From Candidatus Omnitrophota bacterium (GTDB lineage Bacteria; Omnitrophota; Gorgyraeia; Aquiviventales; Aquiviventaceae), in contig JAHFGV010000012.1 of NCBI GenBank assembly GCA_023247255.1, positions 12,778 through 61,225 of the forward strand: a DNA stretch of 48,448 nucleotides, in the 5' to 3' direction. Made by a program: the position numbers and the translations under genes. This document shows positions 3,382 through 9,128 of the stretch, in pieces; position 1 is the stretch's first letter, and every line of letters starts with the position of its first letter. Under the pieces are notes generated by a model. It did not search any database. It was not told where the DNA came from and worked only from the letters and a program-made list of their open reading frames with translations.

Positions 3382-4093
3382 ATGGAGGAGTTGCTGACCA
3401 TGACGAGACGGGAACTGGACAAGCTCAGAGTGATTCGCCAAGTGCTGGAGCACAAGCTTAGATGGCGCGAAGCGGTCAGACAATTGGGATTGTCCACCCG
3501 CCAGATCGCACGATTGTGTATCCGGGTGCGGACCGACGGCAACAAGGGAATCATCCATCGCTTGCGTGGACGAGGAGGTGCAGCTCGATGGCTCCGACCA
3601 TGCCTGATTCGAAGAACGCGCTCCCCGGTGCGTGCTGCTCATTTACATCGACGATGCGAGGAGCCGGATCCTCGATGGGGAGTTTGTCGCGCTCGAGGAC
3701 ACGCTGAGCTTGCTGCGCACTACGAAGACCTACCTTCAGCAGCACGGTCGTCCCGTCGCCTTCTACGTCGACAAGGACTCGATCTACCGGGTCAATCGCC
3801 AGGCCACCATCGAGGAGCAATTGCAGGATATGGCACCCTTGACCCAGTTCACGCGCTCGATGCGCGAGCTGAACATCGATGTCATCTGCGCCCACAACCC
3901 TATCGCCCGCCACGGACGCATCCCTGGAAGGATCCCTCTTATTACGCGATGCACCGACGCCAAACCGCCTCGCACGCTGCAACGGGGATACTCCGATTCC
4001 TCCCTCGGTGACGATCGTCGATTCTGGAGCCTGTCAGAGGCCAAAAACGCGACGACTCCAAGCGCCCAACGGCCATTGTGCACAAGTTCATAA
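3382..4093 (+). pseudogene. Decayed ISNCY-family transposase
   Basis: Three pieces of one transposase can be read in different frames. The first 60 codons from ATG 3382 carry a helix-turn-helix start (MTRRELDKLRVIRQVLE, LGLSTRQIARLC). After a deletion a second piece reads QLDGSDHA-stop-FEERAPRC near 3580-3630, where a TGA replaces the expected Trp. It continues as LLIYIDDARSRILDGEF and VAFYVDKDSIYRVNRQATIEEQL (3632-3900), the DDE integrase core of ISNCY elements. The frame is lost again after about 3910. A full-length relative would be well over 400 residues, so this is an inactive remnant with a deletion, a nonsense codon and at least one frameshift. Confidence 0.8.
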
Positions 4094-4180
4094 CTTATCC
4101 ACCCTTCCCCCCTAAACCCCCCATCCAAAAACAACGACTATGACATTTCTATTGGCTTGCGACAGGATAGGAGCACCGGC

Positions 4181-4216
4181 TTTCCAATCGACAATCGAAA
4201 ATCTACAATCGAAAAT
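4181..4216. repeat. Short repeat family 4 (ATCGACAATCGAAAAT-type)
   Basis: A run of near-identical units, CAATCGACAATCGAAAAT, close to the sequence found inside mqnC at about 8757-8835. The stretch 4094-4259 has no gene. Its right end (4245-4260) carries a TTTTTCCGCAGCCTGCTA motif related to the ends of family 3 elements. Confidence 0.55.
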
Positions 4217-4259
4217 TCTCTCAGCCTTGAGCGCCGCGGGACTTTTTCCGCAGCCTGCT

Positions 4260-7766: not shown

Positions 7767-9095
7767 TTACCATTTCCTGAGTATTTCATACAGCGTCGTA
7801 CGCTGGGCGGCTGGGAAACCGGATTCCTGGATCAGGGTGACGACTTCGTCGATAGTCGTCTTGTTGATGAAGTCTGCCGCGGCATGGACGTTTTCTTCGA
7901 ACAAAGTGCCGCCGAAATCATCTGCGCCAAAGTGCAAGGCGATTTGACCCGTTTTCTTTCCCTCGGAAAACCAAGAGGCTTGGATATGGCGAACATTGTC
8001 GAGGTAGAGCCGCGAAAATGCGATCATGCGCAGGTACTGAGTGGGGCCCGCGTGGACCTTGATGGCTTTCTCAAGCGGCGTGTTACCCGGCTTGAAGCTC
8101 CAGGGGATGAAGGCGGTGAAGCCGCCGGTTTCATCCTGAAGGGTTCGGATGTGATCCAGATGTTCCAGGATGTCCTCGTCTTGCTCAATATGCCCGAACA
8201 TCATGGTCGCCGTGGATTTGAATCCAAGTTTGTGTGCCTCGCGATGGACAGAAAGCCACGCCTCGGCAGGGCCTTTCTTTGTGGCTAATCGTCGACGGAT
8301 GCGATCGGAAAGGATCTCGGCTCCACCCCCCGGTAAGGTGAATTGACCCGCGTCCTTGAGTCGTTGTAAGACCTCGCGAATCGACAGCCCCGAGACCTGA
8401 GCCATCATCGTGATTTCTGAGGCCGTGAAAAAATGCGGGGTGACTTGCGGAAATCGTCTGCGGGTCTCACGGACGAGACGGGTGTAGTAGTCCAACGATA
8501 GACTGGGGTTGTGTCCTCCTTGCAAAAGAACCGTGGTGGCTCCTCGTTCCACGGATCGCTGGATCTTCTCCATGACCTGCTCGATGGTGAGGGTGTAGCT
8601 GTCCGCAGCGCCAGGCTTGCGGTAGAAGGCGCAGAACACGCAGTCGGTGATGCAGACGTTGGTGTAATTGGGATTCGAATCCACCACGAAGGTGACGACG
8701 GGCTCCGGGTGGAGCCCCACAGGATGAGCTTGTGGCACCAGCACTCCCACACCTTGGAATTTTCGATTGTCGATTTTGGATTGTCGATTGGAAGACGGCC
8801 GTTCAATCGAAAATCGACAATCATCAATCGACAATTCCACAGGATGAGCCTGTGGCACTGCCAGGTCCATCCCGCGTGGGGCGACATCCCGCCCACCCAA
8901 TCGGCTGCTAACTGCCGTGTCGCCCACGGCTTTCGGCCGTGGCGCAATGGCGGGGTTGAGCCGTAAGCGTACCTGCTGGGCCAGGCGACCCAACTCAAGC
9001 AGAGGCGCTTGTTGCCACAGCCACAAGCCATCCTCCCGACTCAGACGCTGACCGGATAGAAGTTTTTCTTCAAGAGCCTCAAAACAGAGGATCAT
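7767..9095 (-). CDS. mqnC: Cyclic dehypoxanthinyl futalosine synthase with in-frame repeat insertion
   Basis: 442 residues. A radical SAM enzyme of the futalosine menaquinone route that cyclises dehypoxanthine futalosine. The SAM motif CITDCVFCAF is at about 148-157, followed by LLQGGHNPSLSLDYY, LPGGGAEILSDR and TATMMFGH, all MqnC signatures. The helical N-terminus (residues 1-46) is normal, but residues about 47-129 are foreign: low-complexity, encoded by inverted repeats and with two near-identical VPQAHPV segments. After it the family sequence resumes at HPEPVVTFVVDSNPNYTN. The family's usual length is about 360, so the excess is accounted for by this block. The frame remains open. The function is probably retained only if the loop is tolerated. 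Confidence 0.88.
   Translation of the reverse strand: MILCFEALEEKLLSGQRLSREDGLWLWQQAPLLELGRLAQQVRLRLNPAIAPRPKAVGDTAVSSRLGGRDVAPRGMDLAVPQAHPVELSIDDCRFSIERPSSNRQSKIDNRKFQGVGVLVPQAHPVGLHPEPVVTFVVDSNPNYTNVCITDCVFCAFYRKPGAADSYTLTIEQVMEKIQRSVERGATTVLLQGGHNPSLSLDYYTRLVRETRRRFPQVTPHFFTASEITMMAQVSGLSIREVLQRLKDAGQFTLPGGGAEILSDRIRRRLATKKGPAEAWLSVHREAHKLGFKSTATMMFGHIEQDEDILEHLDHIRTLQDETGGFTAFIPWSFKPGNTPLEKAIKVHAGPTQYLRMIAFSRLYLDNVRHIQASWFSEGKKTGQIALHFGADDFGGTLFEENVHAAADFINKTTIDEVVTLIQESGFPAAQRTTLYEILRKW
8712..8958 (-). repeat. Composite repeat insertion inside mqnC
   Basis: About 246 bp within the coding sequence, made of several hairpins. One is CCACGGC/GCCGTGG, one is GGGCG/CGCCC. A directly repeated unit GTGCCACA(G/A)GCTCATCC appears at both sides and itself folds as CCACAGG-CTCAT-CCTGTGG. 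Between the two units lies a long inverted repeat of ATTGTCGATTTTCGATTG type, also seen at 4181-4216. No stop codon arises in the mqnC frame. Boundaries are estimated from the point where the protein departs from the family pattern. Confidence 0.75.
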
Positions 9096-9128
9096 TTATG
9101 AATTTCCGAAAATCGGCAATCGACGCTG

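Follow-up and report, generated by a model that had tools for sequence, protein, structure and literature searches.

The mqnC gene in a 48,448-nucleotide stretch of contig JAHFGV010000012.1 from a Candidatus Omnitrophota bacterium (the whole stretch is referred to as the window) encodes a protein that leaves its family near the N-terminus and later returns to it, which raises the question of what kind of DNA entered this gene and how the reading frame was kept. An initial annotation had described an in-frame insertion of repeats at this position. Alignment with MqnC of 16 relatives (L092-L107), drawn from 27 genomes of the family and with cores 77-88% identical, confirmed an insertion, which comprises residues 48-129. 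The relatives pass directly from VRFRLN to PEP, and the 82 residues were absent from all 16. The window reads CGGCTCAAC/CCCGCC...GGGGCTCCAC/CCGGAG at this site (slashes mark the ends of the insert). The DNA of three empty sites (L092, L095 and L100) reads CGGCTCAAC/CC[TCA]GAG, with a left part identical to the left flank in the window, and the motif CTCAAC was already present in all three. The region reported initially (8712-8958, residues about 47-129) was right, but its ends were 3-4 bases off (Table 1).

Table 1. Features of the mqnC insert and related elements in the window
Feature	Position	Strand	Basis
mqnC, 442 aa	7767-9095	minus	ORF list, Pfam, alignment with relatives
Whole insert, 246 bp = 82 codons, residues 48-129	8709-8954	minus	absence in 16 relatives
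Element A, left part, CCCGCC to CCTGTGG (hairpins 1 and 2, first copy of hairpin 3)	8837-8954	minus	nhmmer A0 1-123; genome copies
Element B, AT-rich 81-bp hairpin nested in A	8756-8836	minus	nhmmer B0, inverted repeats
Tail, second copy of A hairpin 3 and right end of A, GGGGCTCCAC	8709-8755	minus	nhmmer A0 88-129, boundary comparison
22-bp direct repeat, copy 1, beside B	8717-8738	plus	repeat search
22-bp direct repeat, copy 2, beside B	8837-8858	plus	repeat search
Host target motif CTCAAC, directly 5' of insertion point	8955-8960	minus	
Second B copy in window, between ORFs	4144-4220	minus	nhmmer B0, ORF list
Sequences bounding element A, CCCGCCATYGSGCC and GGGGCTCCAC			

The insert contained no stop codon over its 246 bp, and homology to MqnC resumed at the exact codon after it, both in agreement with the initial annotation. 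The radical-SAM and the CofH/MqnC C-terminal domains were recognised as intact by Pfam in the insert-bearing protein, and the catalytic CxxxCxxC motif was retained. Comparison of the mqnC core with that of L092 gave a low dN (about 0.08), in keeping with a retained function, and a saturated dS, which makes it uninformative on selection after the insertion. An AlphaFold model of MqnC, built from few aligned sequences, was of low confidence (mean pLDDT 53.6), with values below 35 and no secondary structure in the insert, and carries little weight.

The insert was found to consist of two nested elements, A and B, a composite nature that the initial annotation had not described. Intact element A, as represented by copies elsewhere in the genome, is 126 bp (42 codons) long, comprises three hairpins and reads NPAIAPRPKAVGDTAV.SRLGGRDVAPLEADLPVPQAHPVGLH in its main frame. 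Copies of A can also stand in tandem with a spacing of 126 bp. In mqnC the left 118 bp of A are followed by B and then by the right end of A, so that B sits inside the last hairpin of A. A direct repeat at both sides of the insert had been noted before; the repeat exists (22 bp, 95% identical), but it flanks only the inner hairpin B and represents two copies of the terminal hairpin of A. The B copy was 100% identical to one inside another ORF (C27:54060-54140), which suggests recent movement.

Element A occurred in two subfamilies, between which some stem pairs co-vary (T-A to C-G, C-G to G-C), and 89% of the pair cells in 48 copies were standard. RNAalifold with ribosum scoring predicted a three-domain structure for near-full-length copies; with default scoring no structure was obtained, either for these copies or for a gappy alignment of A. 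The loop of hairpin 1 alternates between CGAAG/CGAAA and CTTCG in both subfamilies, as if its tip had been inverted.

Both elements were dispersed over the genome. In the 0.33 Mb of fetched stretches, to which the copy counts refer, 142 A/B copies were present in 104 clusters, 52 of which contained A. The core pattern CACAGGATGAGCYTGTG, allowing up to 2 mismatches, was matched 66 times in the genome and 0 times in the reversed control. The insert DNA gave 121 local matches in the genome, and its translation matched about 90 further places, many of them within open frames of 300-1100 codons. The insert is therefore not a product of chance.

As a generic codon-usage classifier discriminated poorly, it was replaced by homology. 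Clusters were either intergenic or lay in-frame within genes, in both orientations and in several frames; this tolerance and the multi-copy nature of the family go beyond the initial description. About half of the A clusters were intergenic. The in-frame hosts identified by Pfam were Der, KdsB, MenC (antisense), Memo-AMMECR1, Trm112-methyltransferase, HemD-HemE (antisense) and CtaA-UbiA (B only). Further hosts recognised in this way included Aas, an MFS transporter, a trehalose phosphatase, a ceramidase-like protein and glycosyltransferases (antisense), among others. Alignments of Der, KdsB and MenC to solved structures resumed on either side of the element; the added peptide differs, as the element is read in another frame in Der and lies in reverse in MenC. 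In nine relatives such host genes were contiguous without the element, with an exact empty site that is not placeable in variable loops. No gene split by A was recognised among the copies checked. Intergenic copies stood between different complete genes, for example those for a tRNA synthetase and IF3, RuvC and YebC, YchF and ornithine cyclodeaminase, or RNase Y and 5-FTHF ligase.

Element A was also present in relatives, with matches in 12 of the 27 family genomes including its own (E <=0.001; several of the matches short and partial). Genome G025 had 15 matches, with three copies that were 98% identical, and G005 had 13. In a sample of 285 genomes of Omnitrophota, with few candidates scored per genome, matches occurred only in members of this one family. 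An exact-pattern scan of named genomes gave 0 matches, and near records possibly lie outside that scan. The mqnC gene of G016 carries A at another site (FV/N...GLH/KTAVDE, slashes again marking the ends), where the window and relatives read F-I/V-N-K-T. In folP of G025, A follows directly on SRKSFIG. Aligned to dihydropteroate synthase 5umg, the protein loses homology at this point and regains it at ERL. Other hosts in relatives were trpE, an HD phosphohydrolase, a GNAT-DegT ORF, a histidine kinase, an NAD kinase and an M48 peptidase. These insertions are independent of that in mqnC of the window. The comparison of the block with RPE, the palindromic elements of Rickettsia, as proposed initially, is supported by a dispersed palindromic repeat that keeps the frame, is missing in orthologues and lies in-frame in many unrelated genes.

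Judged from these sequence comparisons, the block in mqnC is very probably a mobile, non-autonomous palindromic element that preserves the frame and, on translation, adds a loop of 82 residues. Element A would insert on the immediate 3' side of a short motif, YC[AG]A[CT], with transposition carried out by an enzyme acting in trans. B, a second mobile hairpin, would have landed within the terminal hairpin of A, an event that may have taken place in mqnC or already in a composite copy of earlier date. In MqnC the additional loop would separate the N-terminal helices from the radical-SAM barrel, and the enzyme has probably retained its function. Since A has a length divisible by three and an open main sense frame, insertion would add residues and not inactivate the gene. 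Insertions that damage genes are presumably purged by selection, which would leave copies that are intergenic or in-frame in loops, linkers and termini.

The flanks and ends of A were compared in the 32 copies that have both. Nearly all of them showed YC[AG]A[CT] as the left flank and terminated on the right in GGGGCTCCA[CT], followed by unconstrained sequence. With A[CT] on the left and A[CT] on the right, the ends are compatible with a 2-bp AC/AT duplication or with none. Terminal inverted repeats were absent, as the ends CCCGCCAT... and ...GGGGCTCCAC are not mutually inverted. It is possible, if unlikely, that A travels in single-stranded form and depends for this on a Y1 (HUH) nuclease, of the IS200/IS605 or RAYT type, that acts in trans; this would be compatible with the mobile palindrome proposed above. 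Consistent with such a mechanism are asymmetric, hairpin-bearing ends that lack terminal inverted repeats, insertion 3' of a short conserved motif already found at the empty site, a right end (TCCA[CT]) resembling the target, and nine Y1_Tnp matches in the own genome. However, none of the Y1 genes of G000, G025 and G005 was bordered by A ends, G003 (93% complete) and G016 contain A and had zero Y1 matches, and a 2-bp AC/AT duplication also fits the ends of A. No enzyme moving A was found. A broader scenario, in which an actively spreading coding palindrome, selected for harmlessness in its length and frames and moved as single-stranded DNA by a trans-acting nuclease, has repeatedly added blocks of 42 codons to conserved proteins across the family, is likewise possible but unlikely.

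The Y1 transposases were themselves considered as a source of A and were rejected on the lack of A ends around their genes in G000, G025 and G005. Y1 genes at L260, L263 and L265 (C19 and C25 of the own genome) were flanked by inverted repeats of their own, of the types GGGGACGGTTC, GGGGTCAGGCATT and GGGGACAGTATAC. These repeats were unrelated to A or B, and their arrangement was as in REP-RAYT units.

Preservation of the frame was also apparent from cluster lengths, which were evaluated by hand. All 17 clusters inside genes were divisible by three in length, compared with 16 of 27 elsewhere. Among clusters that deviated from the intact lengths the ratio was 7/7 for genic copies and 7/18 elsewhere (one-sided Fisher p 0.007), a test that is partly circular because the genic label partly rests on open frames. 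Intact A, with 126 = 3 x 42 bp and an open main frame, is harmless by construction. The A consensus of the relatives was open in 6 of 6 frames (shuffling P 0.016) and B in 4 of 6 (shuffling P 0.002), while the local A consensus was open in 3 of 6, no more than shuffled sequence.

These lengths also bear on whether the protein is made without the 82 residues, the inserts being removed after transcription by RNA splicing or bypassed by ribosomes. The inserts are strongly structured, and translational bypassing of palindromic elements is known from the mitochondria of the yeast Magnusiomyces (PMC6649704). Yet splicing or bypassing would not call for an open frame or a length divisible by three, both of which the genic copies keep. 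Copies also occur in several frames and antisense, and Rfam matched only a tRNA in the window and no intron or other family. Such processing is therefore very improbable. Equally improbable is a peptide module that serves as a linker or in binding and is kept for its usefulness by protein-level selection. The peptide NPAIAPRP...GGRDVAP...VP.A.PVGLH was recognisable in several genera, but variation was nearly even over the codon positions of the element, a bias too weak to be informative, copies in other frames or antisense encode a different peptide, and the frequent intergenic position of A and the functionally unrelated hosts do not fit a module. Decay of mqnC and the other hosts to pseudogenes, or artefacts of short-read metagenome assembly, which might be suspected as all genomes compared were metagenome assemblies and repeats misassemble easily, is hardly credible given hosts without stops or frameshifts and with intact catalytic motifs, the presence among them of Der and KdsB, which are usually essential, and separate assemblies (G016 mqnC, G025 folP) with the element at different in-frame sites, the last of which also makes the assembly error considered in the initial annotation unlikely.

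The mobile, frame-keeping palindrome was compared with known systems. RPE are about 100-150 bp long, several of their families lie in-frame in conserved genes, and the guanylate kinase (Gmk) of Rickettsia with an RPE insert is translated and active (PMC10969869, PMC2229807, PMC3767692). Like RPE, especially RPE-1 to RPE-3, A is palindromic, multi-copy, intergenic as well as in-frame in conserved genes, and has an open frame. It shares with RPE and with WPE, the corresponding repeats of Wolbachia, a dispersed palindromic unit of about 100-150 bp (126 bp, three hairpins, co-varying pairs) and stop-free in-frame insertion, here in MqnC, Der, KdsB, MenC, FolP, TrpE and others. In contrast to RPE, A belongs to a different phylum, its host lineage being, according to MqnC matches in named genomes, Candidatus Omnitrophota and not Rickettsiales, has no terminal inverted repeats but a YC[AG]A[CT] target motif, and forms nested A+B composites and 126-bp tandems. 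Because taxon and ends differ, A was not classed as an RPE; the likeness described is one of behaviour. The same applies to WPE, protein-coding palindromic repeats in a second genus (cited in PMC3767692), which in the literature consulted are restricted to Rickettsiales; here the likeness is by description.

Other small non-autonomous repeats with open frames, such as ERIC, the 107-bp Correia element and QMITEs, can also fuse in-frame with genes (PMC2229807, PMC5896051). These MITEs carry terminal inverted repeats and, in many cases, a TA-type duplication. A lacks such repeats, and its ends fit a 2-bp AC/AT duplication as well as none; in-frame insertion well inside conserved enzymes is far commoner for A than for bacterial MITEs. 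Elements of the REP/IS200-IS605 type form hairpins, lack terminal inverted repeats and insert next to a short target motif, and REPs are extragenic by definition. A resembles this type in its hairpins, short target motif and ends, but no Y1 transposase is linked to the ends of A, and A is also found inside genes. A literature search for such repeats in Omnitrophota, made with a loose query, yielded nothing relevant.

Frame-keeping palindromes in enzyme genes were described as peculiar to Rickettsia and later to Wolbachia as well; both genera are alphaproteobacteria with an obligate intracellular life. An element family that behaves in this way in Omnitrophota shows that such palindromes also occur outside Rickettsiales, and they must have had more than one origin unless their sequences turn out to be related. 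Mobility, tolerance and the evolution of proteins can be put to the test here, as the target motif is defined, near-identical copies exist and related genomes offer both empty and filled sites. Annotators should bear in mind that a long insertion without explanation in a conserved protein of these genomes may represent mobile DNA rather than a domain.

Some further observations concern single loci. At L051:309-2444 (minus strand), HemD and HemE are joined in one open frame of 712 codons with a B/A remnant exactly in the linker; in the relative L279 they likewise form one frame, and the element is absent. In the window, a 15-bp B-like fragment, CGAAAATCGGCAATC, with 93% identity to the B repeat, lies at 9107-9121 between the start of mqnC and the next gene and is possibly a relic of another B copy. 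Directly adjoining the second B copy of the window, overlapping frame-shifted ORFs were present at 3382-4134, which by eye look like a degraded transposase of the integrase type.
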